This document shows, one piece after another, positions 4,797 to 20,101 of a DNA stretch of 20,101 nt. This DNA is from Nitrospiraceae bacterium (GTDB lineage: Bacteria > Nitrospirota > Nitrospiria > Nitrospirales > Nitrospiraceae). The stretch is from NCBI GenBank assembly GCA_014534095.1, contig JACVSD010000022.1, positions 1 through 20,101 of the forward strand. Reading direction: 5' to 3'. The position numbers and the translations under genes were made by a program. How positions within the stretch are numbered: the stretch's first letter is position 1; the number at the start of each line of letters is the position of its first letter. Below the pieces are notes generated by a model that saw only the letters and a list, made by a program, of their open reading frames with translations, ran no database searches and was not told where the DNA came from.

Positions 4797-4810
4797 CGCT
4801 GAAAGGAACG

Positions 4811-5477: not shown

Positions 5478-6357
5478 TCAGTCTGTTTTCGGCGAACTGC
5501 CGGCGAGCAGGGGGAGGAGAGCGTCCGAAACGCGGGAAAGCGCGAGCGCAGCGGCAGATGCCGGCTCGCTCTCGACCACGGGAAGATAGCTACGGACCGC
5601 TCGCTCCATGGCCGGATCATCGGGTATTTCTCCCAATAGGGTCACATCCCCACCGACATACTCTTTCAATAGTTTCCGGAGCTGCAGAACGTTCACCCGG
5701 GAGCGGCCTGCCACCCGGTTCAGAATGAGGGCGGGGTGAAAGGTTTGGAGCGCCTGCTCTGCGATCGCACGCCCGGTTTCATCGGTCTTCCCGACCACAT
5801 CCAGGACCTCCTCGACGCTGCTGAAGTCCCTTTCCGACAGCGCGTCGGCCATTGCATCCTGCGGGAGGAAAGAGGCAAGCACACGCCGGATAGCTGCGAG
5901 TTTGATGAAGCGATACAGATCCAATACGGACGTGGGATCAGGGGTGGCCACCACTAAGTGATGGTCGGCCATGAGGAAAAAGTCCAGCGCGTGGTATCCG
6001 GTCCCGGCCCCAATGTCGGCAAGAACGAGGTCCGCCTCAATCTCTCGGACATGACGGATTAACCGGGTTTTCGTGGCGTACGCCATGTTTGCGGTCCCCA
6101 GGGTATCACCGGTACCAGGAATGATCCGCAACGCCGGATGAAGAGCGAGAGGCTGCGCGACCTCGGCCAGGCGCTCGATCCGCCGGTGCAGGAAGTCCGT
6201 GAGCGTCGAACAGGATGTGGCTATCGGCTCCGCCGATGTCGAGATCCACCAAAACGACCTGCCGGCCCCTCTTCGCCAAGAGCAGCGCCAGATTGGCGGC
6301 CACCACGCTTTTTCCGACGCCACCCTTGCCTGATGCAATAGAAACGATGCGAGCCAT
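5478..6357 (-). pseudogene. MinD/ParA family ATPase (FleN-like), frameshifted
   Basis: Reading from 6357 on the minus strand the protein starts MARIVSIASGKGGVGKS, a deviant Walker A motif, and goes on through VVLVDLDIGGADSHILF. At base 6207 the homologous sequence leaves this frame and continues in another frame with TLTDFLHRRIERLAEVAQP, LRIIPGTGDTLGTANMAYAT, ADIGAGTGYHALDFFLMADH and VVATPDPTSVLDLYRFIKL to the stop at 5478. One unpaired base joins the halves, and family members have about 6-7 residues between the HILF-like strand and TLTDFL, so a deletion of roughly 17-20 bases is likely rather than a single-base error. Intact FleN/FlhG-type ATPases control flagellar number and expression. 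AGGA lies upstream of the ATG. No programmed-shift signal is visible. It may be a true pseudogene or an assembly error. Confidence 0.82.
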
Positions 6358-6479
6358 TGATATGCGTTCCTGGGGCTTAGGTCTCTCTCGGTCGATTGCC
6401 CCCGAAACATAAGGAGCAGAACCGCCAGGGCCCGACACGAGCGGAGCGTCCGCTCTCACAATGGACGAAAGCGGCGATT

Positions 6480-6585: not shown

Positions 6586-6747
6586 ATGACGGTCGTGGAG
6601 GTGGCCCGGTTTCTCCGGGTTCCCAAATCCACCGTGTACAAGCTTGCGCGGCTCGGTGAATTGCCGGCCTCCAAGATCGGGAAGCATTGGCGCTTCCTCC
6701 GTCGCGACATCGATCAGTGGATGCACAGTCGCTCACAGGCGGCGTAG
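6586..6747 (+). CDS. Excisionase-type helix-turn-helix DNA-binding protein
   Basis: The 53-residue product is almost entirely one MerR/excisionase-like winged HTH: MTVVEVARFLRVPKSTVYKL forms the HTH helices, followed by ARLGELPASKIGKHWRFLRR and DIDQWM, the conserved wing and last helix. It should bind DNA. The start at 6586 is chosen because GGGGGAGAG at 6574-6582 lies at the right distance; the frame is open back to an ATG at 6517, but that codon has no ribosome binding site and would lie only a few bases after the predicted sigma-28 start. The extra 23 residues would be polar and outside the domain. It stands divergent to the FleN-like gene and 83 bases before cheR, so a role in regulating flagellar or chemotaxis genes is plausible but unproven. 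Small proteins of this type also occur in mobile elements; none is seen here. Confidence 0.85.
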   Translation: MTVVEVARFLRVPKSTVYKLARLGELPASKIGKHWRFLRRDIDQWMHSRSQAA

Positions 6748-6767
6748 GCGGTCCGCGTATGACCGCC
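6747..6767 (+). other. Small hairpin after the HTH gene
   Basis: GGCGGTC at 6747-6753 pairs with GACCGCC at 6761-6767 around a 7-base loop, directly after the HTH stop codon. No T-run follows, so it is not a typical terminator; it could protect or process the mRNA between the HTH gene and cheR. Confidence 0.35.
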
Positions 6768-6830
6768 GAGACCGGAAGAGGCGGTGCGCTCCGCGCCACT
6801 GCCAGGACTCGCTACGACCTGAAGGGAAGA

Positions 6831-7688
6831 ATGGGACACGCAACTTCGAAGTCGGACGTCGAACACCTCTCGATGACCGACGAAACATTCACGCAGCTTC
6901 GCGAACTCATCTATGAACAAACCGGCATCACCTTTCAACCCAATCAGAAGTACCTCCTTGAAAGCCGCCTGCTGAGCCGGTTAAAGCGGCACAAGCTCGG
7001 ATCCTACCAGGACTACTATGACTATCTGCGCCGCGATCCCTATCGCGACAAAGAACTCACGTCGCTCTATGCCCTCATTACCACCAACGAGACGTACTTC
7101 TACCGGGATATCCCTCAGTTGGATACGTTCATGGGCACCATCGTGCCGGCTTCGATGGAAGCGAACAAAGCCTCCCGGCAATTGCGCATCTGGAGCGCCG
7201 CTTGTTCGACGGGCGACGAAGTGTACACGCTCGCTATCCTCCTGCAGGAGCATCCCCCGCTGTCCGGATGGACCATCGACCTGCTGGGGACCGATCTCAG
7301 CGATGTCGTCCTGGAGAAAGCCATGGCCGGAGTCTATGGGGCCCACACGCTTCGTCATGTGCCCCCTGCGCTCAAAGCGAAGTATTTTGCCGAGCACAAG
7401 GGCCTTTTTGCACTAAGCTCCGACATCAAGCAACGAGTGAAACTCATGAACCTGAACCTCTACGACCGTCCGCGCCTGAAGCTCATCCGCGGGATGGACG
7501 TCATCTTTTGCCGCAACTGTCTGATCTACTTTGACGACAAAGCGAAACACCGGATTCTGACTGACCTGCACGCGGCATTAAAGCCGAGCGGGTACTTAGT
7601 GATCGGGTTTTCCGAGTCCCTTACCCATATGGCCACGCTGTTCCGCCCCATTCATGCCGGGCGGTCGGTCGTGTATCAAAAAGTCTAG
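6831..7688 (+). CDS. cheR: Chemotaxis protein methyltransferase CheR
   Basis: This 285-residue protein has the two CheR parts: an N-terminal helical domain (about residues 15-80, [18 protein letters not shown]) that recognises receptor helices, and a C-terminal SAM-dependent methyltransferase domain. Visible motifs are [10 protein letters not shown], the SAM loop [32 protein letters not shown] and [12 protein letters not shown]. The SAM loop has small changes from the common GCSTGEEPY form, but the acidic residue is kept. CheR methylates glutamates on chemoreceptors for adaptation, opposed by CheB. The start at 6831 is chosen from the preceding GAAGGGA and the family length; the frame is open upstream to 6687, but that part overlaps the HTH gene. 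cheY follows after 14 bases. Confidence 0.95.
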
Positions 7689-7702
7689 AGGAGGTAGCGA
7701 CC

Positions 7703-8083
7703 ATGCCGGCAGACCCAAACATGAAAATTCTGGTGGTAGACGACATGTCCACCATGCGGAGGATCGTGAAGAACATCTTGAAACAGCTCGGCTTCGGCAA
7801 CATGGAAGAAGCCGAAAACGGCCAGGAGGCATTGGCCAAATTGCGGGCCGATTCCTATGGCTTTGTGGTCTCCGACTGGAACATGCCGGTGATGGCCGGC
7901 ATCGAAATGCTCCGGGCGATTCGCTCGGACGACAAACTGAAACATATTCCGGTTCTCATGGTGACCGCCGAAGCACAGAAGGAAAATCTCGTCGAAGCAA
8001 TCCAGGCGGGGGTCAACAACTATATCGTCAAGCCGTTCACTGCAGAGGTCATGCAGGAAAAGATCGGCAAGATCTTCAAATAG
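7703..8083 (+). CDS. cheY: Chemotaxis response regulator CheY
   Basis: This is a single receiver domain of 126 residues. The acidic pair is Asp13-Asp14 ([12 protein letters not shown]), the phosphorylation site is Asp58 ([10 protein letters not shown]), and the switch residues Thr88 (VTAEA), Tyr107 and Lys110 (NNYIVKPF) are all present, as in enteric CheY. Phosphorylated by CheA, it binds the flagellar switch protein FliM and changes rotation. An almost perfect ribosome binding site, GAGGAGGT, precedes the ATG, which suggests high expression. It follows cheR and is followed by cheZ after 6 bases, so kinase output and its phosphatase are made together. Confidence 0.97.
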
Positions 8084-8089
8084 GAAGGA

Positions 8090-8752
8090 ATGGCCGGTAT
8101 GGCGACTCGCACCACCGCATCGAACGGGCTGCCGAAAGCGCAATCGATCCTGGATCCCGGCGGCGCTCCCATCGATACCCAAATCTACGATCAACTGGGC
8201 GAACTGGCTCGGTTTATCGATACCACGTTGAAGACGATAACGCAGTTTCGAGATCCGATGAGCGCCACCACCGAACAACTGACCGAGTCGGCAAACCATC
8301 TGAGGGATCTCAAGCGATTGACCGAAGACGGCACGCACAAGGTGATGCAGGTCGTCGAAACGCTCCAAGACAACCACCGGCGCCTCGTGACCCATCTCGA
8401 CGACGTGAGCCGCGCGGTGTCGGCCGTGCCCGGGTTGACGGATGCGGTGGCCACCGTCTCTGCGATGCAGCAGGCCCTGGCGGAAGACGAGAAACCGCTG
8501 GTCGATATTCTGACCGCGCTCTCGTTCCAAGATTTGGCCGCCCAGCGCCTGAACAAGCTGGTCACCATCGTCGAGGAAGTCGAGCACAGACTCCTCGAAC
8601 TGGTGGTGGTCTTCGGGCCCTATACCAAAGGAGCCGGGACCGCGGAGGCAAGCAAGACGAGCGCCATGCTGCAGCAGTTGGAGGCTTCCAAGACGACGGC
8701 GATGAACCAGGATCTTGCGGACGAGATCTTAAAGCAATTCGGATTCAACTAG
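8090..8752 (+). CDS. cheZ: CheY-P phosphatase CheZ
   Basis: This helical protein of 220 residues has the CheZ hallmarks: the active-site segment SFQDLAAQ, with Asp148 and Gln152 spaced like Asp143 and Gln147 of E. coli CheZ, then a long amphipathic helix (RLNKLVTIVEEVEHRLLEL), a flexible linker, and the C-terminal CheY-binding peptide DLADEILKQFGFN. CheZ removes the phosphate from CheY-P and resets the motor signal. The N-terminal long helix pair (about residues 40-150) forms the dimer. A second in-frame ATG at 8099 has better spacing from the AGGAAGGA site at 8082-8089 and may be the true start, giving 217 residues. The coding region begins 6 bases after cheY. Confidence 0.94.
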   Translation: MAGMATRTTASNGLPKAQSILDPGGAPIDTQIYDQLGELARFIDTTLKTITQFRDPMSATTEQLTESANHLRDLKRLTEDGTHKVMQVVETLQDNHRRLVTHLDDVSRAVSAVPGLTDAVATVSAMQQALAEDEKPLVDILTALSFQDLAAQRLNKLVTIVEEVEHRLLELVVVFGPYTKGAGTAEASKTSAMLQQLEASKTTAMNQDLADEILKQFGFN

Positions 8753-8813
8753 CTGAGTGATGTGTCAAGCGTGATGGGATGACGAGTCACCGCAATACGG
8801 AACACAGGTCGGA

Positions 8814-8845
8814 CGGTGATCACTGATCCCCTTCACCGATCACCG
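8814..8845 (+). other. Inverted repeat upstream of cheA
   Basis: CGGTGATC at 8814-8821 pairs with GATCACCG at 8838-8845 around a 16-base loop, and the left arm overlaps the perfect palindrome GTGATCAC (8816-8823). It lies in the 112-base gap between cheZ and cheA, 19 bases before the cheA start codon. It could be a regulator site or an RNA hairpin affecting cheA; no T-run follows. No clear promoter was recognised in the same gap. Confidence 0.4.
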
Positions 8846-8864
8846 GGTGTCATCGGAGGATGCT

Positions 8865-10730
8865 ATGAGCGATGAGATGCAGGAAATTCTCAATGACTTT
8901 TTGACGGAATCCAACGAGATGATTGATGTGCTCGACCAGCGTTTTGTCGTGCTCGAATCCGACCCGAATAATACTGATCTCTTGAACGAAATTTTCCGGG
9001 CCATGCACAGCATGAAGGGCTCGGCGGGATTCTTGGGCTTCAATCATCTCGTCGATGTCACCCATCGTGCCGAAAGCATCCTCAATAAGATGCGACAGGG
9101 TGAAATGGCCGTCGTCCCGGACGTCATCAACGTGATCCTGGAAACCGTCGACGTGGTGAAGGCCATTATGGCCGATATCCGCCAGACCGGGACGGACACC
9201 CATGTGCCGATCGAAGCCATGGCAAAGAAACTTGATGACGTGCTGGCCGGCACCATCAGCGCCGCTGTCCCTCCGCCGCCCCCCGCGGCGACGACGAAGG
9301 CCGGACAGCCGGCCGCAGCCGCCCCTGCAACGATCGGCGAGATCCTTGTCAAGGAAGGGCTCGCCACCAAGGAACAGGTTTTCGATGCCTTGACCGAACA
9401 ACACAAGCAGCCCGAACCGAAGCAGCCCCTGGGAGAGCTTCTGGTTCAAGCCAAAGCCATTACGGAACGAGCACTGGACCATGCGCTGAACAAGCAGGAA
9501 CGCCAACCGAAGCCCGGCGAAGAAGACCAAACCATTCGGGTCGAAACCCGCCGACTGGACTCGGTGATGAACCTGGTAGGGGAACTCGTGCTGGGTCGGA
9601 ATCGACTGATCAAGATTGGCGGCATTCTCGAACAACACCATGAGACCGATCCCCAGGTTCGGGCCCTCAGCGAGACGCTCACTCAATTAAATCTCGTGAC
9701 AACTGATTTACAGCTCGCCGTCATGAAGACCCGCATGCTTCCCATTCGGAAAGTCCTCGCGAAGTTGCCCCGGATGGTGCGTGATCTGTCTCAGAAGTTG
9801 GGCAAGCAAGTACGGCTGGAGACACACGGCGAGGAGACCGAGTTGGACAAATCCGTGGCCGACGAGATCGGTGATCCGCTGGTCCATCTGGTGCGCAACG
9901 CGATCGATCACGGCATCGAGATGCCCACGGAGCGGCATGAGCGCAATAAGCCGACGGAAGGAATCCTGCGGATCGCCGCCAGTCAGGAAGGCAATAGCAT
10001 CGTCATCCGGATTCAAGATGACGGACGCGGAATCCCGCTCGACAAAGTCAAAGCCAAGGCCTTAGCCAAGGGATTGATCAGCGAAGCCGAGCTGGCAGCC
10101 ATGGAACCCCGTGAAATCGTCAACCTGATTTTCCTCCCCGGATTCAGCACGGCCGAGAAAGTCACGGACGTGTCTGGGCGGGGCGTCGGTATGGACGTCG
10201 TGCGCACCAATATCCGGAAGATGAACGGAACGGTTGAGATTGAATCGGAACAAGGGAAGGGCAGTCTGATCACCATCAAGTTGCCGCTCACCATCGCCAT
10301 CATCCAGGCCTTGATGGTGGAGGTCGAGCGGGCCACCTTTGCCATCCCCTTGAGTTCGGTGATCGAAGCCGTGCGGATCACGAAGTCGGACATCAAAACC
10401 ATCAATGGCCGGGAAGTCTTGCACTTGCGTGACCGCGTGTTGCCCCTGCTTCGGCTCGCCCAGGAATTTGACTTGCCGGTGGATGCGGACCGGGAACGCT
10501 TCAATGTCGTGGTGGCCGCGCTCGGAGACCGGCGCATCGGCGTCGTGGTCGATGAGTTGCGCTCTCAAGAGGAAGTCGTCATCAAATCGATTTGGGATTA
10601 CCTCGAAAGCATCAAGGGCATCTCTGGGGCGACCATTACGGGTGATGGAAAGGTGGTGCTCATCTTAGACATTTCCGAATTGGTCGAAAATGCCCATGCC
10701 TGGCATGGCAATGTCGCGACAGCCGCCTGA
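8865..10730 (+). CDS. cheA: Chemotaxis histidine kinase CheA with MshEN-like repeat region
   Basis: This 621-residue cytosolic kinase has an N-terminal Hpt (P1) domain with the phosphorylated His48 in AMHSMKGSAGF. In place of a recognisable P2 domain there is a Pro/Ala linker and two 24-residue repeats: TIGEILVKEGLATKEQ starts the first (156-179) and PLGELLVQAKAITERA the second (188-211), similar to MshEN units. Then come the dimerisation helices (VETRRLDSVMNLVGELVLGR), the HATPase domain with N-box DPLVHLVRNAIDHG (Asn345), DDGRGIPLDK and GRGVGMDVVR, and a CheW-like P5 domain (about 480-615). CheA phosphorylates CheY, CheB and CheV under receptor control. GGAGGA at 8855-8860 sets the ATG at 8865; a GTG six codons upstream lacks a site. 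Confidence 0.96.
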   Translation: MSDEMQEILNDFLTESNEMIDVLDQRFVVLESDPNNTDLLNEIFRAMHSMKGSAGFLGFNHLVDVTHRAESILNKMRQGEMAVVPDVINVILETVDVVKAIMADIRQTGTDTHVPIEAMAKKLDDVLAGTISAAVPPPPPAATTKAGQPAAAAPATIGEILVKEGLATKEQVFDALTEQHKQPEPKQPLGELLVQAKAITERALDHALNKQERQPKPGEEDQTIRVETRRLDSVMNLVGELVLGRNRLIKIGGILEQHHETDPQVRALSETLTQLNLVTTDLQLAVMKTRMLPIRKVLAKLPRMVRDLSQKLGKQVRLETHGEETELDKSVADEIGDPLVHLVRNAIDHGIEMPTERHERNKPTEGILRIAASQEGNSIVIRIQDDGRGIPLDKVKAKALAKGLISEAELAAMEPREIVNLIFLPGFSTAEKVTDVSGRGVGMDVVRTNIRKMNGTVEIESEQGKGSLITIKLPLTIAIIQALMVEVERATFAIPLSSVIEAVRITKSDIKTINGREVLHLRDRVLPLLRLAQEFDLPVDADRERFNVVVAALGDRRIGVVVDELRSQEEVVIKSIWDYLESIKGISGATITGDGKVVLILDISELVENAHAWHGNVATAA

Positions 10731-10796
10731 CGATCAGACCTGCGTACCGCTCAGGAAGCGGCTTGACGCCGGAGGCACAGAGGAATCGGAGGAAAT

Positions 10797-11750
10797 ATGT
10801 CCACGCTGATCAATGAGATCGACGCACGAACCCGGCTCGCCGGCGCCAACCAGATGGAGTTGCTTCTCTTTCACTTAGGGAGCCCCGAACTCTTCGGCAT
10901 CAATGTCTTCAAGGTCCGTGAAGTCATGAAGTTTCCGCAGCTCACGCGCGTCCCTGAGGCCGATAACCGGGTCGTCGGCATGGCGAACATCCGGGGCACC
11001 ATGGTGCCGGTGATCGCGTTAAAGCGCAGCCTAGGCCTTGGTGAGCATGAGGTCGATCTGTCCCATCTTGATGCCAAGGAAAACGGCATCCTGATCATTA
11101 CGGAGTACAACGGCAGCCTTCAGGCGTTTCATGTCGCTGCAGTGGATCGCATCATTCGCACCTCCTGGTCGCAAATCAAGACCCCGCCGGCCCTCGTGAG
11201 AGAAAACAACAAAGGCGCGGTTACGGCGGTCACGATGCTCGAGAACGGCCGGATGGTCCTGATCCTGGATGTCGAAAAACTGCTCAGCGATATTTGCCCC
11301 CGGCCGGACGACGAGGTCTATGCCGGGCTCCAATCCAAGGCGGAATTGACGGCGAAATGTGTCCTCTTTGCCGATGACTCGACGGTCGCCAGAACGCAGA
11401 TTCGGAAAGCGCTGGACCGACTGGGCGTGCCCTATGTACAGACCACTACGGGGAAGGAGGCTTGGGACTATCTGCAGCAGTTAGCCGATAACGCTGCCAA
11501 GCAGGGCCTCCCTCAGGTCGAGCAGATCAATCTGATCCTAAGCGACATCGAAATGCCCGACATGGATGGCTTCACGTTGACCAAACAGATTCGGTCGGAT
11601 CCGAGATTGGCTCACATCCCGGTCATCCTGCACTCATCGCTGACCGGTACCTGCAATCAGGATAAAGGCAAGCAGGTCGGCGCGACGGATTATGTGACGA
11701 AGTTTGACCCCAAGACGTTCGCCGACAAGTTAACGCGCTACATCAATTGA
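10797..11750 (+). CDS. cheV: Chemotaxis coupling protein CheV (CheW-receiver fusion)
   Basis: The 317-residue protein fuses an N-terminal CheW domain (about residues 15-170; ELFGINVFKVREVMKFP, VVGMANIRGTMVPVIAL) to a C-terminal receiver (about 185-315). The receiver has Asp193-Asp194 (VLFADDSTVAR), phosphorylation site Asp250 (LSDIEMPDMDG) and KFDP in place of KPF, the usual form in CheV. CheV links chemoreceptors to CheA, and its phosphorylation by CheA damps signalling, giving an adaptation path alongside CheR and CheB. GGAGGA sits just before the ATG. Between cheA and this gene are 66 bases with only a weak 5-bp hairpin. The presence of both cheV and cheW in one cluster suggests different receptors use different couplers. 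Confidence 0.93.
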   Translation: MSTLINEIDARTRLAGANQMELLLFHLGSPELFGINVFKVREVMKFPQLTRVPEADNRVVGMANIRGTMVPVIALKRSLGLGEHEVDLSHLDAKENGILIITEYNGSLQAFHVAAVDRIIRTSWSQIKTPPALVRENNKGAVTAVTMLENGRMVLILDVEKLLSDICPRPDDEVYAGLQSKAELTAKCVLFADDSTVARTQIRKALDRLGVPYVQTTTGKEAWDYLQQLADNAAKQGLPQVEQINLILSDIEMPDMDGFTLTKQIRSDPRLAHIPVILHSSLTGTCNQDKGKQVGATDYVTKFDPKTFADKLTRYIN

Positions 11751-11802
11751 GCGCCGTATTGGCCCGGGCCCTCTATACGCAGGCCACGAAGGAACAGCTG
11801 TC

Positions 11803-12873
11803 ATGCTGAAGCAGCTTCAGGTGCTGGTCGTCGACGATTCGACGTTCATGCGGAAAAGCCTCTCCTCCATGCTGGCGTCGGATGCGCGTCTCGCGATCGT
11901 CGGCATGGCGCGAAACGGGGAAGAAGCCCTGCAGCTGGTGCATCAATTAAAGCCCGACGTGGTCACGATGGACGTGGAGATGCCGGGCATGAACGGTCTC
12001 GAGGCCCTGAAGCGCATCATGGCAGAGCACCCCCTGCCCGTCGTCATGGTCAGTTCGATGACGACGGAAGGCGCGCGCGATACCCTCAAGGCGCTGGAGT
12101 TGGGCGCCGTGGATTTCATCCCCAAGCAGCTCGACGGCGTCGCGATGAAGATCCATGACCTGCAAGAGCAGTTGATTGCGAAGATTGTGGCGGCCGGTCA
12201 GGCAGGGGACAAGGTGAGGCAACGCCTCTCTCCGGCAGTTCGCCCGGCTGCGCTCAGGCCTCGTGCTGCCGCACTGACGGCCCAGTCGGTCAGCCTGACA
12301 CGGGGCAGTCGAGCCGTGGCTATTGGCTCTTCTACCGGAGGCCCCCAGGCGCTCTTGGAAGTGCTCCCCGGATTTCCGTCCGATTTTCCGGCCGGCATCG
12401 TCATCGTGCAGCATATGCCCAAGAATTTCACCAAACCCTTTGCCGATCGCATGAACGCCGTCTGCGCGCTGGAAGTCAAGGAAGCGGCCGATGGCGATGA
12501 AGTGAAGCCAGGGCGCATTCTGATCGCGCCGGGGGGCCTGCAATGCCGCGTCAAGCGGAGGTCCATCACCAGCACTGTGATCGGACTCAGCCCGAACGCC
12601 GAACATCATCTCCATGCGCCCTCGGTCGATGCGCTCATGCAGTCGATGGCGGCTGTCTATGAAGAGCGCAGCATCGCGGTCATCTTGACCGGCATGGGGC
12701 ATGACGGGCTGGACGGCATGAAAGCCATCAAAGCCGCCAGAGGACGGACCATCGCACAGGACGAAAAGACCTGCATTGTGTATGGGATGCCGAAAGCAGT
12801 CGTGGAAGCCGGGTATGCGGATAAGGTCATACCGCTATCGGGCGTAGTCGGGGAGATTCTCAACATGGTCTAG
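11803..12873 (+). CDS. cheB: Protein-glutamate methylesterase CheB
   Basis: This 356-residue protein has a receiver (residues 1-125; Asp11-Asp12, phosphorylation site Asp57 in TMDVEMPGMNG), a linker rich in Ala and Arg, and a C-terminal methylesterase domain. The catalytic triad is visible: Ser177 in IGSSTGGPQA, His204 in VQHMPKNFT and Asp301 in LTGMGHDG. CheB removes methyl groups from receptor glutamates (and can deamidate glutamines) and is activated by CheA phosphorylation, opposing CheR. An AAGGA site lies upstream of the ATG. The length is normal. No cheD gene is present beside it, so any deamidation would fall to CheB. Confidence 0.96.
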   Translation: MLKQLQVLVVDDSTFMRKSLSSMLASDARLAIVGMARNGEEALQLVHQLKPDVVTMDVEMPGMNGLEALKRIMAEHPLPVVMVSSMTTEGARDTLKALELGAVDFIPKQLDGVAMKIHDLQEQLIAKIVAAGQAGDKVRQRLSPAVRPAALRPRAAALTAQSVSLTRGSRAVAIGSSTGGPQALLEVLPGFPSDFPAGIVIVQHMPKNFTKPFADRMNAVCALEVKEAADGDEVKPGRILIAPGGLQCRVKRRSITSTVIGLSPNAEHHLHAPSVDALMQSMAAVYEERSIAVILTGMGHDGLDGMKAIKAARGRTIAQDEKTCIVYGMPKAVVEAGYADKVIPLSGVVGEILNMV

Positions 12874-12918
12874 GGAGACGGGCGCCAGTTACTTTCACTC
12901 ACACAGGAGAGGGGCATT

Positions 12919-14604
12919 ATGAGCATGCTGTTTAAGAATATGAATATCGGGTCCAAATTTGTGTTGTCGATTGGCGGGGTCGCCTTTGCGATTATCGCGG
13001 TCGGCCTCGTGCTCATTTACCAACAGGAGCAGGAGAAATTGGAGTTGCTCCTGGAGCAGCGCGGAAAACTTCTCGAGACTCAAATCCAAATCACACGGGC
13101 ATACATTACGCAAAACTATGTGAGCAAACTAAAAAAGAGCAAAGCCGGGTCCGACGTGGTGGTCGCCAAGGATCATGCGAGCAGTATGGATGCCATTCCA
13201 TTTCCGGCCACCGCGATACGGGAGATGGGCGAGGAAGCCAATAAGGGCGGATTGTATACATCACGCATGATCAGCCAAACTCCGCTTAATCCGGCCAACG
13301 CGCCCAAGGACGCCTTTGAGATGGATGCACTCAGAGCGATCATGAGCGGCGCCGAAAGCTACTCACGCATCGAAGAAATGAACGGGGTCCTTACCTATCG
13401 ACGCGCCTCGGTAGACAAGGCGACGTCGGCCGCCTGTATCGGATGCCATACCGACAAACAAGTGGGAGACACGCTGGGCGTGCTTGCCGTGGGCCTCAAC
13501 ATGAGCAAGGGAAAAGCGGCATCCGACCGGTCTATCCTCTCCACCGGGGCCCTGATGGGCGGTATGGTGTTGTCCCTGGTCCTCGTCACCTATTTGTTGC
13601 TGCGCAGCATCGTCTTGAAGCCGCTCGCCCATGTGGCCAGCATCACGCGAGACATTGCACAAGGAGAAGGGGATCTCACGAAGCGCGTTCCCGTCAACGG
13701 CAGCGATGAGATCTCGCAGTTAGGCAACTACTTCAATCTCTTTATCGAGAAACTACAGAAAATGATCGGCAAGGTGGCCCATGTGACGGACAAAGTCGCC
13801 TCAGCCTCTGTGGAATTGTCCGCGACGGCGGAAGAGATTTCCAAGGGAACGGATACCTTGACGTCCCGAGCCTCTCAGACCGCCGCTGCCGTGGAAGAAA
13901 TGAATGCCACGGTCAGTCAGGTCGCTCAGAATTCAGGAAAGGCCGCGACATTGGCGCAGGAGACGGTCAAGACGGCGAAGGATGGAGGCTCCGTGGTGTC
14001 CGACACCATCAATGGCATGCAACATCTGTCGGATGCCGTCTCGAACAGTGCGACCATCATTGCTGAACTCGGCAAATCTTCGGATCAGATCGGTGAAATC
14101 GTTCGGGTCATCGAAGATATTGCGGACCAGACCAACCTGCTCGCCTTAAACGCGGCCATCGAGGCGGCGCGCGCGGGCGAACAGGGACGGGGATTCGCCG
14201 TCGTCGCCGACGAAGTCCGCAAATTGGCGGAGCGCACGACGAAAGCCACGAAGGAAATCGGGGACATGATTCGCCAGATCCAACAGGACACACGCGGCGC
14301 GGTGGACTCCATGCAGCAGGGCACGCAAAAGGTCTCCGGCGGCGTCGAATTGGTCAATAAGACTGGTGAGGCGCTCACCCGCATCGTACAGATGGTGTCG
14401 GAAAGCGCGGACATGATACGCCAGATTGCGGTGGCCTCGGAGGAGCAGTCGGTGGCCACGCAGCAGATTGCGAACGATATCGAAAACGTGGCCAAAGTCA
14501 CGAAGGAATCCGCTTCCGGGGCGAACGAATCGGCCAAAGCCAGCCACGATTTGAGCCAGTTGGCGGTCGAACTGCAGGGCATCGTGGGATCGTTCAAGGT
14601 GTAA
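12919..14604 (+). CDS. Methyl-accepting chemotaxis protein with periplasmic c-type heme domain
   Basis: This 561-residue receptor has a transmembrane helix at about 13-33, a periplasmic domain to about 206, a second transmembrane helix at 207-228, a HAMP domain (about 229-282) and a cytosolic signalling domain with the conserved tip [20 protein letters not shown] near residues 398-417. The periplasmic part has the features of the Tll0287-like (DUF3365) family: [24 protein letters not shown], and a CIGCH heme c motif at residues 173-177 followed by [12 protein letters not shown] covalently attached heme should sense redox state or a gas such as oxygen or NO. AGGAGAGG precedes the ATG. There is no C-terminal CheR-tethering pentapeptide. 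It sits between cheB and cheW, so it is probably a main receptor for this CheA. Confidence 0.93.
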
Positions 14605-14629
14605 GGCCCACTCAGGAGAGGAGACGTCG

Positions 14630-15187
14630 ATGATTGTGGAAGAAAAATCCGCGCCCCGGGTGAACCAGGGCGCGGAATCGGGAAGCGGCATCATCACGCG
14701 AGAGGCCGTGGCGGGCGACGACCTGTGCCAGTTCGTCACGTGCCTGATTGCCGATGAAGAGTTCGCACTGGACGTGTTAAGCGTCCAGGAGATCAACCGT
14801 ATGGTGGAAGTGACCCGGGTGCCGAAAGCCCCTCGGTTCGTGGAAGGTGTCATCAATCTTCGCGGGCGGATCATTCCGGTGTTGGATCTCCGACGGCGGT
14901 TCGGGCTGCCGCCCACGAATCAAACGGCTGACTCACGCATCATGGTCGTACTGGTCCGTCAGCGGATGGTGGGACTCATCGTGGATGAAGTGGTGGAAGT
15001 ACTGCGTATCCCGAAGTCCTCGATTGAGCCGCCGCCGTCCGTGGGGAACTCGGCTGGATCCGAGTTTACACAGGGGGTCGGCCGGATCGATGACCGTCTG
15101 TTGATCGTCTTGGATCTAAACCGCCTGTTGCTGCCCAACGAACATGCGGCGATGGATGCAGTCACCGGCTCGGGGGTGTCTCATTAG
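14630..15187 (+). CDS. cheW: Chemotaxis coupling protein CheW
   Basis: This 185-residue protein has one CheW domain (about residues 32-170): FVTCLIADEEFALDVLSVQE, then RVPKAPRFVEGVINLRGRII, PVLDLRRRFGLP, and VVLVRQRMVGLIVDEVVEVL. The first 30 residues are a polar extension. CheW bridges MCP tips and the P5 domain of CheA in the receptor array. AGGAGAGGAG lies just upstream of the ATG. It follows the MCP by 25 bases in one transcription unit. Its last 26 bases overlap the end of a small gene on the opposite strand. Confidence 0.95.
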   Translation: MIVEEKSAPRVNQGAESGSGIITREAVAGDDLCQFVTCLIADEEFALDVLSVQEINRMVEVTRVPKAPRFVEGVINLRGRIIPVLDLRRRFGLPPTNQTADSRIMVVLVRQRMVGLIVDEVVEVLRIPKSSIEPPPSVGNSAGSEFTQGVGRIDDRLLIVLDLNRLLLPNEHAAMDAVTGSGVSH

Positions 15188-15401
15188 CCGATGAGCCGGA
15201 CGGTTTCCGCTGGTTCTGGATCATGCGCTCCAGCAAGCGGAGAGACTCGTTCAGCAGGTCTGAGGCGCAGCTCATGGTGGTCTGGAATTGCTGCATCGCT
15301 TCAGCCTGCTTGCCTTCCCGCTGGAGCGCCTGGAAGCGACGATGTTGCTCGTCGAGAATGGCTTGCTTCGCATCAAGTAAGAGACAATCCAGCGAGTTCA
15401 C
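15162..15401 (-). CDS. Small helical protein, 79 residues, unknown function
   Basis: A GTG start at 15401 on the minus strand is preceded by a perfect GGAGGT (complement of 15407-15412) at 5-base spacing, which is strong evidence for translation. The product begins NSLDCLLLDAKQAILDEQHR (after Met), is Gln/Glu/Arg/Leu-rich and predicted helical over residues 3-65, with a heptad-like segment DLLNESLRLLERMIQNQR, and a disordered tail. I do not recognise a family. It converges with cheW, overlapping its last 26 bases, and diverges from motA. Size and helical charge pattern resemble small flagellar chaperones or regulators, but that is only a resemblance. Overlapping plus-strand frames here look like shadows. 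Confidence 0.6.
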   Translation of the reverse strand: MNSLDCLLLDAKQAILDEQHRRFQALQREGKQAEAMQQFQTTMSCASDLLNESLRLLERMIQNQRKPSGSSANETPPSR

Positions 15402-15423
15402 ACCTCACCTCCAACTCGTGTGT

Positions 15424-15456
15424 GACTCGCACGGTATCAGACGAGGACTCGCACGG
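15424..15456. repeat. 11-bp direct repeat in the orf79-motA divergent region
   Basis: GACTCGCACGG occurs at 15424-15434 and again at 15446-15456, a 22-base period equal to about two DNA turns. A degenerate copy starts at 15413. The pair lies between two divergent gene starts and ends 11 bases before the motA -35-like element, a position suited to a regulator binding site. Function is inferred only from placement and spacing. Confidence 0.45.
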
Positions 15457-15466
15457 GCAATAGTAC

Positions 15467-15493
15467 CAAAGCATGGGTTTTGATCGCCGGTCA
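15467..15493 (+). promoter_or_regulatory. Sigma-28 (FliA)-like promoter candidate for motA
   Basis: CAAA at 15467-15470, a 15-base spacer and GCCGGTCA at 15486-15493 match TAAA-N15-GCCGATAA at 3 of 4 and 6 of 8 positions. The predicted start lies about 20 bases before the motA GTG. FliA control of motA and motB is common in other bacteria, which makes the match more believable. Confidence 0.45.
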
Positions 15494-15522
15494 ACGACAC
15501 GACACAAAGGACTGCACGCCGC

Positions 15523-16299
15523 GTGGACATCGCAACCATATTGGGCCTCATTCTCTCCATCGGAGCTATCGTCGGCGGGCAAGCGCTCGAAGGCGGACAT
15601 ATCAGCTCTGTCCTTCAGCTGACCGCCTTCATTATCGTCATGGGCGGCACGCTCGGCGCCTGCCTCGTGCAGAACCCCCTGTCGGTCGTCGTCCGGGCAG
15701 CCAACCTCGCGTCCATGGCGCTCAGCGGCTCGCGCGTCGAAAACAAGAGCACCATCAAACTGATCCTTGAGCTGGCGAACGTCTCGCGAAAACAAGGTTT
15801 GCTCGCGTTGGAGGGCAAGCTCAAGGACATTGATGATCCCTTCATGAGAAAAGGCGTCCAGCTCATTGTGGACGGAACGGATCCAAAGGCCGTGCATGAG
15901 ATCCTCGAAATTGAAGTGGACCAGAAGGAAGACGAAGGCTTGATTGCCGCTAAGGTTTGGGAAGCGGCCGGCGGATACTCGCCCACCGTGGGTATTCTCG
16001 GGGCCGTGTTGGGGTTGATCCACGTCATGGAAAACCTTGCCGATCCGTCCAAGCTGGGATCCGGCATCGCCGTGGCGTTCGTCGCGACCGTGTATGGCGT
16101 CGGCGCCGCCAATCTGCTCTTCCTCCCGCTGGCCAATAAGATCAAGTTTAAGCTGAGAGAAGAAGCGGGGTCTCGGAGCATGATCATTATGGGGCTGGTC
16201 GGTCTCGCCCAGGGAGAAAATCCAAGGCTTCTCCAGGAAAAACTAGAGGGCTATCTGCCACACAGCGAACGCACGAAGGACAGCAATACAGCCGCGTGA
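15523..16299 (+). CDS. motA: Flagellar motor stator protein MotA
   Basis: This 258-residue inner-membrane protein starts at a GTG (MDIATILGLILSIGAIVGGQ) with AAAGGA about 11 bases upstream. It has four predicted membrane segments: residues 1-20, about 33-52 (LTAFIIVMGGTLGACLVQ), about 150-172 (YSPTVGILGAVLGLIHVM) and about 180-205 (IAVAFVATVYGVGAANLLFL). The cytosolic loop between the second and third carries the charged residues that act on FliG. The conserved Pro of the third segment, in SPTVGILG, is present. MotA forms the ring around MotB in the stator and couples ion flow to torque. Ion type (proton or sodium) cannot be settled from sequence here. Confidence 0.95.
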   Translation: MDIATILGLILSIGAIVGGQALEGGHISSVLQLTAFIIVMGGTLGACLVQNPLSVVVRAANLASMALSGSRVENKSTIKLILELANVSRKQGLLALEGKLKDIDDPFMRKGVQLIVDGTDPKAVHEILEIEVDQKEDEGLIAAKVWEAAGGYSPTVGILGAVLGLIHVMENLADPSKLGSGIAVAFVATVYGVGAANLLFLPLANKIKFKLREEAGSRSMIIMGLVGLAQGENPRLLQEKLEGYLPHSERTKDSNTAA

Positions 16300-16328
16300 C
16301 CATGTGGCCCTAGCGCCGGTATGCCGCC

Positions 16329-17117
16329 ATGGCGAAAAAGCACAAGCACGAAGAACACGAGAATCATGAACGCTGGTTGGTGTCCTATGCGGACTTCATC
16401 ACCTTACTGTTCGCGTTTTTTGTCGTCATGTATTCCGTCTCCGCCGTCAACGAGGGAAAATTCCGCACGGTCAGCGAATCGATCAAAGCCGCGCTCCATC
16501 CGATCGCGAGCCGGGAGGCCTCGCCGCTCGCCTTCAATGTGGGGGACAACCGCCCCTCGCTTGTCGCCCCGAACCTGCCCGGCACCAAAGAGGTGGCCAT
16601 TCGCCGGCTGAGAGAACTGGTCAAATCCACCCAAACGATGTCTCAATTTGACGTCATCCATCTGACGGAACGTGTAGATGGCAGCATCGTGATCACCATC
16701 CCGGATCAGGTCTTGTTCAATAGCGGAGAAGCCGCCGTACGCCCAGAAGCGCTGCCGTTCCTCCAGGGGCTGGCGGAGGCCATGATAGAGCTCAATCGCC
16801 AAGTCCGCGTAGAAGGCCATACGGACAACGTGCCGATTCACAGTGCCTTGTTCCCATCGAACTGGGAGCTCTCAGCGACGCGGGCGGTCATCGTGGTGCG
16901 CGTCCTTACTGAACTGTATGGGGTGCCGGCCACCCACCTCGCCGCCTTGGGCTACGCCGATTCGAGACCGGTCACCCACAACCTCAATCCGGCACAGCGG
17001 GCAAAAAATCGACGCGTGGAAGTTATTATCTTGGAAGAAAGACCGCCGCCGCCATCCCGCCATCCGCTGCCGGTTGCCGCCGCCGACCCTGTGGTGGCGG
17101 AGGAGCCCGTCCAGTAA
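16329..17117 (+). CDS. motB: Flagellar motor stator protein MotB
   Basis: The 262-residue protein has a short His- and Lys-rich cytosolic N-terminus, one membrane helix (RWLVSYADFITLLFAFFVVM, about residues 15-36) with the ion-carrying Asp22, a plug/linker region, and an OmpA-like peptidoglycan-binding domain (about 115-240) with VEGHTDNVPI, SNWELSATRA and NRRVEVIIL. It anchors the stator to the cell wall and carries the ion path. The HEEHENHERW lead into the membrane helix is typical of one MotB subfamily. No convincing ribosome binding site is seen before ATG 16329, so it may depend on coupling with motA, 29 bases upstream. The tail is Pro-rich. Confidence 0.95.
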   Translation: MAKKHKHEEHENHERWLVSYADFITLLFAFFVVMYSVSAVNEGKFRTVSESIKAALHPIASREASPLAFNVGDNRPSLVAPNLPGTKEVAIRRLRELVKSTQTMSQFDVIHLTERVDGSIVITIPDQVLFNSGEAAVRPEALPFLQGLAEAMIELNRQVRVEGHTDNVPIHSALFPSNWELSATRAVIVVRVLTELYGVPATHLAALGYADSRPVTHNLNPAQRAKNRRVEVIILEERPPPPSRHPLPVAAADPVVAEEPVQ

Positions 17118-17198
17118 GGGCCGCGGACGTGAGGGCCGGACAAAGGCTGCGCCGGCGCGAGCACGTTCAGTGGAGCAAAGGGACTGAAGGAGGCCATT

Positions 17199-17543
17199 AT
17201 GCACATCCGAGAGCGAGCCGTGCCCAATGGAGTCGTGCTGGATATGAGCGGCGACCTCACGTATGCCAATCGCGAGCGCTTTAAACACGCCATCGAGGCG
17301 GTAGAACAGAAGGGATGCCGGCATCTTTTGCTCAACATGGCGGAGGTGCGATTCGTCGACAGTTCCGGCCTCGGTTTGCTGGCGCTGGTGGCTCAGAAAT
17401 TCAAGCTCGCCCAAGGCAAAGTGAGCCTTTTGAAGCCGCAGAGCTATGTGCGGGAGATCATGGCTTTGGCCAGCATTCCGAAGCTGATTCCGATTTACGA
17501 CAATGAGGACGATGCGCTATCCGGACGGGCACAAGCGGCGTAA
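17199..17543 (+). CDS. STAS domain anti-sigma factor antagonist (SpoIIAA/HsbA-like)
   Basis: This 114-residue single-domain protein has the STAS fold pattern: a first strand region GVVLDMSGDLTYANRERF, a helix, and the phosphorylation loop VRFVDSSGLGLLALVAQK. Ser56, the second Ser of DSSGLG, is equivalent to Ser58 of SpoIIAA. In partner switching the unphosphorylated form binds an anti-sigma factor or another target, a serine kinase inactivates it and a PP2C phosphatase restores it. The three genes after it encode exactly such partners. A strong GAAGGAGG site precedes the ATG. It starts 81 bases after motB. The closest functional parallel I know is HsbA of Pseudomonas, which acts on FlgM; the true target here is unknown. 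Confidence 0.92.
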   Translation: MHIRERAVPNGVVLDMSGDLTYANRERFKHAIEAVEQKGCRHLLLNMAEVRFVDSSGLGLLALVAQKFKLAQGKVSLLKPQSYVREIMALASIPKLIPIYDNEDDALSGRAQAA

Positions 17544-18769
17544 TGACCCGGTCATTACCATCGGGTAGACCGCCGATAGCTCCGGCTTCTTCTCCTGGAG
17601 CTGCTGCTCCGCCACAGACTGTCCTGATTGTGGATGACGAACCGGTTGCCCGGATGAGCATGAGCGCGCGACTCAAACGCCTGGGCTATCGGGTCCTCGA
17701 GGCGGCCAATGGCAAAGACGGCCTCGCACTGCTGCGGCAGGAGCGGCCGGACCTCACCATCCTTGATTGGATGATGCCGGAGATGGACGGTCCCACGGTG
17801 TGTGAGCGGGTGCGACAAGATCCGGCCATTCAGTCGAGCCAAATCCTGCTGATGACAGGTCACGATCAGCCGACTCAAATCGCCGAAGGCCTGGCGCGTG
17901 GCGCCGATGATTTTCTGAGCAAGGCGGCTACGAAACAGGAGATCTCGGCCCGGGTGCAGGCGGCGCTTCGGGCTGCAATGCTCGTGCGGTCGCTGGAACG
18001 GGCGCGGGACGACGTGCAGCGCAAGCAGGAAGTGCTGGAGCGTGAATTGAACTCCGCTGCCCGGTATGTCGAGTCCTTGCTTCCTGAGCAAGGGCGCATC
18101 CTTCCCGGTGTCCAACTGGGACATCTCTATCGACCCTCTCTTGCGCTCGGCGGAGACCTGTTCAATGTCGTGGCTTGGAACGACGGCTTGGTGGGATTGT
18201 ACCTGCTGGACGCCTCCGGCCATGGTGTGTCTCCGGCGTTACGGTCCGCGTCGTTGTCCACTTTTCTCCGAGCAGACAGTTTGCTCCGTCAAGTCGGCTC
18301 GACTGACCCGGGAGCCATTCTCACCGAAGCCAACACGCGCTTTCCTCTGACGGAGGACGGCGCGTACTTTACGATCACCTTCGCCACGCTCGATCTGGCT
18401 GCCAACACTGTCTCCTATGCCTGCGCCGGTCACGGTGGCACGCTTCTGCAGCGGCATCAAGGCACCATGGAGTGGCTGGAAGACCCGGCCTTGCCCTTGG
18501 GTTTCGATCCGCGCACGACGTATGTCTCGAAGCAGATCTCTATTGAGCGCGGGGACCGCCTCTTTTTCCTGAGCGATGGCGTCTATGAGGTGCCTGGACC
18601 AGCGGTTGAATTGTGGGGAAAACGACGGCTGGAAAATGCGATCCGTCTTCGATGCGACGTGTCACTGACGGAGGTGTTTGCCGGCGTGATGGCCGAGGCG
18701 GCTCTGTGGCTTGGCCATGACCGGTTCCCGGACGATGTCGCCATCATGGGGATCGAGGTCCTGAGATGA
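17543..18769 (+). CDS. Receiver-PP2C serine phosphatase (RsbU/HsbR-like)
   Basis: Residues about 26-145 are a receiver with Asp31-Asp32 (VLIVDDEPVAR) and phosphorylation site Asp75 (ILDWMMPEMDG). A coiled-coil linker follows (SLERARDDVQRKQEVLEREL). Residues about 190-408 form a SpoIIE-type PP2C domain with the metal-binding residues in place: Asp205 in LGGDLFN, Asp223 in LDASGHGVSPAL, Asp345 in FLSDGVYE, and Asp397-Asp398 in PDDVAI. Phosphorylation of the receiver probably controls removal of phosphate from the STAS protein encoded just upstream. The ATG overlaps the STAS stop codon (TAATG), so the two are translationally coupled. Pseudomonas HsbR has the same first two domains but also a kinase domain, which is absent here. 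Confidence 0.92.
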   Translation: MTRSLPSGRPPIAPASSPGAAAPPQTVLIVDDEPVARMSMSARLKRLGYRVLEAANGKDGLALLRQERPDLTILDWMMPEMDGPTVCERVRQDPAIQSSQILLMTGHDQPTQIAEGLARGADDFLSKAATKQEISARVQAALRAAMLVRSLERARDDVQRKQEVLERELNSAARYVESLLPEQGRILPGVQLGHLYRPSLALGGDLFNVVAWNDGLVGLYLLDASGHGVSPALRSASLSTFLRADSLLRQVGSTDPGAILTEANTRFPLTEDGAYFTITFATLDLAANTVSYACAGHGGTLLQRHQGTMEWLEDPALPLGFDPRTTYVSKQISIERGDRLFFLSDGVYEVPGPAVELWGKRRLENAIRLRCDVSLTEVFAGVMAEAALWLGHDRFPDDVAIMGIEVLR

Positions 18770-19152
18770 GGCCACCTCAGGAAAGCTCCATGGGGGGCAG
18801 GGAGTCGATCTTCAGCCTCCGCGAGGCATTGGCCGGCGCGGACGATGACTCCGACCTGTTCAAGGCTATGGCTGAAGCTTTTGTGACGGAGGGCCCGAAG
18901 GATCTCGCTGAAGCCCAAAGAGCGCTGGCCGCCCGGGACGGCGCGGCCCTCGCTCGTTCCGCCCACCGTCTGAAGGGCGCCCTCCTGCAGTTCTGCGCCC
19001 CGATGGTGTTGGCCTCGGCGAAAGAATTGGAAGCCTTGGGAACTGGGGGAACGTTTGATGCCGCAGCCCCGGTCTTTGTTCGCCTCGAGCAGCAACTCGG
19101 GCAATTGTTCATGGCCTTGCGTGAGACGCTCGTCAAGGGACCTGACGCATGA
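18766..19152 (+). CDS. Histidine phosphotransfer (Hpt) domain protein
   Basis: This 128-residue helical protein has the Hpt signature SAHRLKGALLQF with the likely phosphorylated His67, preceded by the helix FKAMAEAFVTEGPKDLAEAQ. Hpt proteins shuttle phosphate between receiver domains or from hybrid kinases. The ATG overlaps the stop of the phosphatase gene (ATGA), and the stop overlaps the next start in the same way, so all three are made together. It is therefore the probable phosphate donor or acceptor for the receivers on either side. No catalytic kinase domain is attached, and no hybrid histidine kinase for it lies in the window. HptB of Pseudomonas is the functional parallel. Confidence 0.9.
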   Translation: MRPPQESSMGGRESIFSLREALAGADDDSDLFKAMAEAFVTEGPKDLAEAQRALAARDGAALARSAHRLKGALLQFCAPMVLASAKELEALGTGGTFDAAAPVFVRLEQQLGQLFMALRETLVKGPDA

Positions 19153-20039
19153 TAGCAGCCGCTTGTGTCGTCCTCATCGTCGACCCCTGTTCTGAAACGC
19201 AGGCGCGCATTGCCGAACATCTGCAGGGCAGAGGGTTCTCCATTATCACGGCCACCGAACCCGTAGCCGCCATGGCCATGATCGATATGGCGGCTCCCCA
19301 TGTCGTCATCACTGACTTGTTTCTTCCCGAGGGCGGTGGATTGGCTCTGACCAAGCGCTTGAAAACGCGTCACGGGAGTTGTCCGGTCATTGCTATGACT
19401 GGGGACGGTTCTTCCACGGCAATCATACAGGCGCTCCGGGCCGGTGCCGTCGATTATTTGAATAAACCGATCGCCGTTGAAGAACTGGCCCACGCCCTCC
19501 AACGAGCACGCCAGGTCCTGCCGCTCGAGATCCACAGTACAGCTGTACGGCGCTTCGAGCATATCGTGACGATGCATTCGCATCCGGACCATATTCCCCA
19601 TACGGTGTCCTGGTTGCTGAAGAGCACGGGGGTGTCGTTGCCGGAGAACCACCGCCTACATGTGCAAGGAGCGTTGCAAGAACTACTGCTCAACGCGGTT
19701 GAGCATGGGAATTTGGAAATCTGCTATCACGACAAACGGCGCGCGATTGCTGAGGACCGATTCGAACAGTTAGTCGCAGAACGGCTGGCCCAACGAGCGC
19801 TCAGCACACGACTGGTCACCATTCATGTCCTGTATGAACCGGGCCGGAAAATCCTTCAGTTTCGTATCACTGATGAAGGACGAGGGTTCAAGTGGCGTAC
19901 GTACCTGCGGGAGGGGCTGTATGCCTGTCCGTCTGACGACGTCAATGGACGCGGTATTTTCCTCGTTCATTCGTTTTTTCCTGAGATGACCTACAATGAG
20001 GCAGGTAATGAAGTGACGATTACCGTTCCGCTCAATTAG
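19149..20039 (+). CDS. Receiver-HATPase protein (RsbW-type serine kinase/anti-sigma-like)
   Basis: Residues about 1-122 are a receiver with Asp12 and phosphorylation site Asp56 (VVITDLFLPEGGG), a switch Thr (AMTGDG) and Lys in LNKP; the second member of the usual acidic pair is Pro13, which may weaken metal binding. Residues about 135-296 are a GHKL ATPase of the RsbW/SpoIIAB kind, with N-box ELLLNAVEHGN (Glu178, Asn182), ITDEGRGFKW (Asp242) and GRGIFLV. There is no histidine dimerisation domain, so it is a protein serine kinase or anti-sigma factor rather than a histidine kinase. It probably phosphorylates the STAS protein three genes upstream and may bind a sigma or anti-sigma factor. The ATG overlaps the Hpt stop codon. 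It is the last gene of the window. Confidence 0.9.
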   Translation: MIAAACVVLIVDPCSETQARIAEHLQGRGFSIITATEPVAAMAMIDMAAPHVVITDLFLPEGGGLALTKRLKTRHGSCPVIAMTGDGSSTAIIQALRAGAVDYLNKPIAVEELAHALQRARQVLPLEIHSTAVRRFEHIVTMHSHPDHIPHTVSWLLKSTGVSLPENHRLHVQGALQELLLNAVEHGNLEICYHDKRRAIAEDRFEQLVAERLAQRALSTRLVTIHVLYEPGRKILQFRITDEGRGFKWRTYLREGLYACPSDDVNGRGIFLVHSFFPEMTYNEAGNEVTITVPLN

Positions 20040-20101
20040 CGGCGTAATTGTCTGCTGTTCGATCTCGTACGTTCTTCCGTCTCATTCATATCGCGCTGTT
20101 C
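20040..20101. other. Window end, no feature recognised
   Basis: After the final stop codon 62 bases remain. I see no open frame, T-rich hairpin or promoter match in them. Confidence 0.5.

Follow-up and report, generated by a model that had tools for sequence, protein, structure and literature searches.

A candidate phosphorelay-linked partner switch behind motAB in a Nitrospiraceae bacterium, with separate phosphatase and kinase genes and a kinase pseudo-receiver

Which of two opposing enzymes could take its signal from a histidine phosphotransfer protein when both carry a receiver domain? This question is raised by four consecutive open reading frames (ORFs) on the + strand of contig JACVSD010000022.1 (assembly GCA_014534095.1, Nitrospiraceae bacterium), positions 1 to 20,101 of which were analysed and are called the window here. 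Downstream of a flagellar stator gene pair, motAB, they encode a STAS protein, a receiver-PP2C phosphatase, an Hpt protein and a receiver-GHKL kinase. The original prediction, made from the letters of the DNA, was that one Hpt could drive both enzymes independently. We found an intact receiver on the phosphatase and a degenerate one on the kinase, in the window as well as in its relatives, so that transfer from the Hpt to the phosphatase is a better reading than an Hpt driving both. We therefore favor a Nitrospira-lineage partner switch in which the phosphatase arm takes up the phosphorelay signal while the kinase carries a pseudo-receiver, with a probability of a little under 60%.

The four domain assignments were borne out by a Pfam scan. 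The STAS gene (17199-17543; PF01740, E = 2.7e-19) follows a Shine-Dalgarno-like GAAGGAGG read from the sequence at 17186-17193. Its product is of the RsbV/SpoIIAA-like anti-sigma-antagonist type, scoring 59.9 bits against TIGR00377 (NCBIfam cut-off 53.45) and matching SpoIIAA structure chains at E = 3.9e-8 to 4.5e-7. Ser56 had been put forward as its phospho-acceptor. The SpoIIAA alignment points instead to Ser55 (codon 17361-17363), the first Ser of DSSG, as the probable acceptor by homology, because the Ala of a Ser-replaced SpoIIAA chain (u16153) aligns there. In published STAS proteins of this kind, the key residues are Ser56 of SypA and Ser55 of BtrV (PMC8256260). The phosphatase gene (17543-18769; Pfam receiver E = 1.9e-28, SpoIIE/PP2C E = 1.4e-31) is of the SpoIIE/RsbU type and joins a canonical receiver (17621-17956; D31, D32, D75, T105 and K127) to a PP2C/SpoIIE catalytic domain (18182-18760). 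The Hpt gene, called at 18766-19152 (PF01627, E = 1.6e-10), holds its phosphotransfer His in the motif AHRLKG (codon 18964-18966). The kinase gene (19149-20039) combines a degenerate receiver (19170-19499, residues 8-117; Response_reg, E = 4.7e-22) with an RsbW-like HATPase_c_2 domain (E = 3.5e-12), a TciR-like architecture whose GHKL serine-kinase part, with E178, N182, D242 and the G-box, spans 19629-20024. The genes had been described as overlapping, which is accurate for STAS and phosphatase (1 base, TAATG) and for Hpt and kinase (4 bases, ATGA). Between phosphatase and Hpt, the overlap hinges on a doubtful Hpt start at 18766, which is not common to most relatives. The likelier start is the ATG at 18790, 20 bases past the phosphatase stop, whose equivalent starts the database copy and most Hpt relatives.

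We then asked how well the residues for phosphate chemistry are kept. As predicted, they are complete in the window save the second acid of the last receiver: the phosphatase receiver has all five, the Hpt has its His, and the kinase receiver has D12, D56, T84 and K106, with the non-acidic P13 (codon 19185-19187) in the usual place of the direct metal-binding Asp. Residues were counted in the best 120 of 892 kinase homologues (window included) and in the best 120 of 851 phosphatase homologues, the latter found with scoring limited to the 7996 candidates sharing most words. None of the 120 kinases has an acid at the second position (Pro in 98, Ser in 14, Ala in four, Gly in three, Thr in one), and 112 lack Thr or Ser at position 84 (Ala in 108, Gly in three, Ile in one; Thr in six and Ser in two). 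Asp56, the phospho-acceptor position, is kept in 111 and replaced in nine (Glu in eight, Gly in one), while D12 and K106 are present in all 120. A pseudo-receiver has been defined as a receiver lacking any one of five active-site residues, among which the second acid contacts the metal directly (Bourret et al. 2025, PMC12632262). Since the second acid is missing, the kinase receiver of the Nitrospira set is, on its sequence, a pseudo-receiver by this definition. It also matches the loss profile published for aspartate-less receivers, which for the most part retain the first acid and the Lys and lack the second acid, with Glu most often standing in for the phospho-Asp (PMC4395418). The mean column entropy of the domain (0.79 bit) is close to that of the adjoining HATPase domain (0.87 bit; phosphatase receiver, 0.49 bit), which indicates a domain under constraint and not one that is simply decaying. 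In the GHKL domain, E178, N182, D242, G244, G246, G267 and G269 are present in 120 of 120. Among these kinases, 12 are assigned to an organism, 11 of them to Nitrospira and the other to a "Nitrospirae bacterium", with identities of 55-59%; nearer relatives reach 85%. When genome contigs were searched with one query, the kinase sequence, six loci came back and none was named Nitrospira; in the viral contigs searched, the kinase had no relative and the Hpt a single weak match. A solved relative of the kinase is "SenB" (PDB 9qih, E = 1.2e-18, residues 51-292), for which no paper was found among the matches listed.

The phosphatase receiver presents the opposite picture. Its acidic pair is present in 119 of the 120 best homologues and is missing only from the window's own protein as entered in the database, a copy whose start is set too late. 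D75, T105 and K127 are kept in all 120. The GGD, DASGHG, SDG and PDD positions of the PP2C domain are invariant or nearly so in the same set. Relatives of the phosphatase reach 92% identity, and those with names include Nitrospira, with N. moscoviensis at 70%. Together, the kinase and phosphatase homologues suggest that the window comes from Nitrospira or a close sister of it. The closest solved structure is PDB 3eq2 (E = 2.4e-36, residues 25-354), a receiver-PP2C protein that we take to be RssB of P. aeruginosa. Membership of the Pseudomonas RssB family itself was rejected, as the window phosphatase scores 125.8 bits against NF045505, where the cut-off is 700. For the Hpt, 486 candidates yielded 18 proteins, that is, the window's and 17 other database relatives. 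The phosphotransfer His is present in 18 of 18, and the stretch AHRLKGALLQFCAP is strongly kept.

Linkage of these genes in Nitrospira relatives was gauged by a proxy for gene order, namely matching sizes of the longest contig per protein cluster, together with two locus-tag pairs; sizes shifted by 1 to 200 bases either way served as controls, and the window was left out. Between the kinase and phosphatase lists, 20 of 119 contig sizes coincide (shifted controls: mean 0.67, maximum 4). Seven of these 20 contigs measure less than 10 kb, down to 3874 bases. The locus tags of kinase and phosphatase are A4E19_04300 and A4E19_04310 in SG-bin1, and CV081_00225 and CV081_00215 in LK265, a spacing that fits one intervening gene if the tags step by five. 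The pairing of phosphatase and kinase thus recurs in related genomes. Between Hpt and phosphatase, four of 17 contig sizes coincide (control mean 0.14, maximum 2); three of the contigs are short and the fourth is a whole chromosome.

A known counterpart of such a module is HptB-HsbR-HsbA(-HsbD) of Pseudomonas aeruginosa, in which an Hpt, a receiver, a PP2C phosphatase, an RsbW-like kinase and a STAS protein likewise form one partner switch, there controlling motility versus biofilm. HsbR dephosphorylates HsbA when it is itself phosphorylated and otherwise acts as the kinase of HsbA (PMC6482189). In common with this pathway, the window has an Hpt as well as a STAS protein whose Ser is predicted to be phosphorylatable. 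HsbR holds receiver, phosphatase and kinase in one protein with one receiver (PMC6482189), whereas the window has phosphatase and kinase on separate genes and two receivers, the kinase's being degenerate, for which reason the single-protein design was rejected for this locus. Links to FlgM, RpoS and HsbD, with binding of FlgM and of a diguanylate cyclase by the STAS protein, are features of the Pseudomonas pathway (PMC6482189). The prediction of a split partner switch with phosphorelay parts, one that looks as if it works like HptB-HsbR-HsbA, stands, and the recurring phosphatase-kinase pair agrees with it. By analogy with HsbR and HsbA, a hybrid sensor kinase encoded elsewhere would send phosphate via the Hpt to the intact phosphatase receiver. 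The phosphorylated receiver would switch the phosphatase on, and the phosphatase would strip phosphate from Ser55 of the STAS protein, which the RsbW-like kinase would re-phosphorylate. The pseudo-receiver of the kinase would be kept as a fold for docking, dimerization or ligand binding and would not be phosphorylated in the usual way. The phosphorylation state of the STAS protein would then set its binding partner. A motility-related output is suggested by the position behind motAB.

Several observations weigh against this model. The window kinase and its nearest relatives (P0002 and P0003) keep D56, T84 and K106 and so lack one of the five residues, and weak phosphorylation of the window's kinase receiver may be compatible with the sequence. 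Hpt relatives number 18, against 892 kinase and 851 phosphatase homologues, even though the conserved stretch of the Hpt is so well kept; because they are so few next to their neighbors, the middle gene of the module may diverge fast, or else many Nitrospira genomes may have another gene in its place. The Hpt and kinase lists share two contig sizes, not above the control maximum of 2. Finally, a Pfam scan of 21 window ORFs revealed neither a cognate hybrid kinase nor a sigma factor or anti-sigma target.

A more specific version of the model, possible but doubtful, makes the pseudo-receiver a coupling device: it would pair with the phosphatase receiver or with the Hpt, or bind a ligand such as cyclic di-GMP (c-di-GMP; the window has GGDEF and PilZ genes), so that the phosphorylated phosphatase receiver alone would turn the phosphatase on and the kinase off. 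If true, opposing enzymes would be coupled by a receiver/pseudo-receiver pair rather than by one common protein. The activation and inactivation of bacterial pseudo-receivers has been called a mystery (PMC12632262). A pseudo-receiver beside a canonical receiver on opposing enzymes, with the likely substrate and the likely phosphate donor adjoining, makes a compact test system. The module would also be a regulatory lead for motility in nitrite oxidizers, in two strains of which FleQ has been proposed as master regulator of motility (PMC5767232).

The surroundings of the module bear on its input and its output. The motA-type gene (15523-16299; MotA_ExbB, E = 1.5e-32) scores 329 bits against NF006583, the NCBIfam model "flagellar motor protein", where the cut-off is 237, and its product is presumably MotC-like. 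The motB-type gene (16329-17117; MotB_plug, E = 2e-23; OmpA, E = 8.7e-16) is MotD-like, MotD being its best NCBIfam model at 234 bits, under the cut-off of 283. Upstream of motAB, on the same strand, lies a chemotaxis block of cheR, cheA, cheV, cheB, a methyl-accepting chemotaxis protein (MCP) gene and cheW (6687-15187). CheA itself might therefore phosphorylate the phosphatase receiver, the switch being an extra chemosensory output and the free Hpt a shuttle or sink. The shared strand of the che and MCP genes favors this, as does the lack of a free cheY among the window ORFs scanned with Pfam; yet it would make a dedicated Hpt superfluous, and the operons may be parted by the 335 bases that lie between cheW and motA, so we regard it as unlikely. 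Scans for transcription signals, which are weak evidence, gave no sigma-70-like promoter in 14550-20101 (1.3 expected by chance) and six terminator-like sites from 14550 on (4.0 expected by chance), the sole + strand one falling within the phosphatase gene.

Comparably low odds attach to a post-translational motor output, in which the STAS protein would bind the stator or another motor part and not an anti-sigma factor. The STAS gene starts after a gap of 81 bases from motB, with no terminator-like site between them, and STAS switches without a known sigma target have been published (SypA; PMC8256260); what counts against the idea is that its whole argument at this locus is one of position. 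The window also encodes flagellin, flaG, fliD, fliS, GGDEF and PilZ genes. A diguanylate cyclase gene had been noted in the same window, and a GGDEF gene is indeed present there (3279-4796), but it ends 12.4 kb upstream, with PilZ, the chemotaxis genes and motAB intervening, and this distance weakens a link between it and the switch. FlgM, FliA or c-di-GMP as the target of the switch is speculation; neither an FlgM nor a FliA gene was seen among the 21 scanned ORFs.

How much of this design is already on record? RbaV, RbaW and RbaY of Rhodobacter capsulatus, named after RsbV, RsbW and RsbY of B. cereus, likewise divide STAS, HATPase and receiver-PP2C domains among separate genes; the rba genes of Rhodopseudomonas palustris form one three-gene operon, and rbaW is tied to flagellar motility as unpublished data (PMC3999984). 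The passages cited here present RbaW as a protein with a HATPase domain and speak of no receiver in it, whereas the window kinase has a receiver at its N-terminus. In these passages, rbaY is separated from the other R. capsulatus genes of the set and no Hpt gene is counted in, unlike in the window module (PMC3999984). TciR of Vogesella indigofera, in turn, has the architecture of the window kinase, an N-terminal receiver and a C-terminal RsbW-like ATPase; Nitrospira is among the taxa listed for TciR-like proteins, and, as far as the authors of the TciR paper were aware, none with this architecture had been functionally characterized before (PMC12826045). TciR works with a sensor kinase, TciK, in a host reported to be without an RsbV homologue (PMC12826045), whereas the window kinase adjoins STAS, phosphatase and Hpt genes. 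In Vibrio fischeri, an RsbW-like kinase, a receiver and a PP2C phosphatase likewise act on a STAS protein, SypA, but all three domains belong to one protein, SypE, where the window has separate genes (PMC8256260, PMC12826045). No paper on the Nitrospira module was found among the open-licence papers listed, judged by titles and abstract openings. "Undescribed", as the original prediction called the module, can therefore apply at most to the combination, given that split RbaVWY and the receiver-RsbW protein TciR are published. The novelty is a split, phosphorelay-linked partner switch whose kinase has a conserved pseudo-receiver, from parts already known.

Receiver-kinases outside Nitrospira show how far loss of the second acid extends. 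Kinase relatives at 27-35% identity, mostly full-length, were found in two phyla: that of a Marinobacter locus, with at least 20 of 398 genomes (a lower bound, as scoring covered the six best candidates in each), and that of a Treponema locus, with 23 of 149 genomes (16 candidates scored), where some matches are to the ATPase part only. A third phylum gave some kinase match in 27 of 28 genomes, mostly to the receiver alone, with two full-length. Among plasmids, 12 of 1894 matching records cover at least 80% of the kinase, and two from Azospirillum cover all of it at 31-32% identity. We sampled 44 loci with 45 receiver-kinases (20 of 26 Marinobacter-phylum places, 20 of 25 Treponema-phylum places, two from the third phylum and the two Azospirillum plasmids). 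The second acidic position, readable in 43 of the 45 aligned, is Asp in 38 and Pro in five. All five kinases with Pro (L100, L101, L102, L107 and L110) come from the Treponema phylum; in three, Glu occupies the phospho-Asp position. Loss of the second acid is thus the rule in the Nitrospira set, with none of 120 acidic, and the exception elsewhere.

Neighbors at these loci were scanned with Pfam in 150 of 190 same-strand ORFs within about 2.6 kb; the 40 short ones (up to 103 amino acids) were left out, as were ORFs above 800 amino acids and the opposite strand, and the STAS of L078 was kept as a known positive. STAS and SpoIIE each occur in at most three of the 150, being outside the 25 families listed, the smallest of which has three members (ties possible). 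The split design is not unique to Nitrospira: at one Marinobacter-phylum locus (L078:6180-10468), consecutive genes encode a receiver-PP2C protein, a STAS protein, a receiver-HD protein and a receiver-RsbW-like kinase, another STAS gene lies upstream of this run, and an Hpt-containing hybrid kinase lies downstream. The receiver of the RsbW-like kinase is intact. This cluster lends some support to the idea of a single Hpt that phosphorylates the two receivers and thereby drives phosphatase and kinase in parallel or opposition, as do, in the window, the placement of the Hpt and both receiver genes in one run and the phospho-Asp, Thr and Lys still held by the kinase receiver. Given the residue losses across the 120 Nitrospira-type kinases and the intact phosphatase receiver, we consider it decidedly unlikely here; it could apply where a split design has an intact kinase receiver, as in L078. 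On both Azospirillum plasmids, no STAS or PP2C was annotated or detected beside the receiver-kinase, which adjoins a large two-receiver protein annotated "response regulator" that is probably a hybrid kinase. That the window's receiver-kinase is an independent TciR-like regulator, a mere neighbor of a STAS/PP2C pair serving another kinase, would suit these plasmids and the rarity of STAS and PP2C neighbors across the 44 loci, but it is very improbable in view of the overlapping genes in the window, the repeated phosphatase linkage on Nitrospira contigs, and the STAS and PP2C genes near the receiver-kinase of L078.

Further observations concern the neighbors of these kinases and the rest of the window. 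HD_5 proteins are common beside receiver-RsbW-like kinases outside Nitrospira (nine of the 150 ORFs, at L015-L016, L028-L029 and L073-L112), perhaps a link to c-di-GMP breakdown. At L112:25-2263, MCP-like and CheW-like genes stand directly 5' of the receiver-RsbW-like kinase, an arrangement that hints at chemosensory input to such kinases. Within the window, the called ORFs for GGDEF and PilZ overlap (region 3279-5416; PilZ from 4673, GGDEF to 4796), and the true PilZ start is probably later. An ORF of 310 amino acids on the minus strand (5478-6410) had no Pfam match, and its only NCBIfam match, far under the cut-off, is to the C-terminal portion of a MinD-type model; an ORF of 368 amino acids between cheR and cheA (7654-8760) had no Pfam or NCBIfam match at the thresholds used. 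Most of the cheW-motA gap is occupied by an ORF of 90 amino acids at 15191-15463. The MCP of the chemotaxis block (12919-14604) has a Tll0287-like sensor domain and may sense redox state or a gas through haem, because that domain holds a CxxCH haem-binding motif (ACIGCH).

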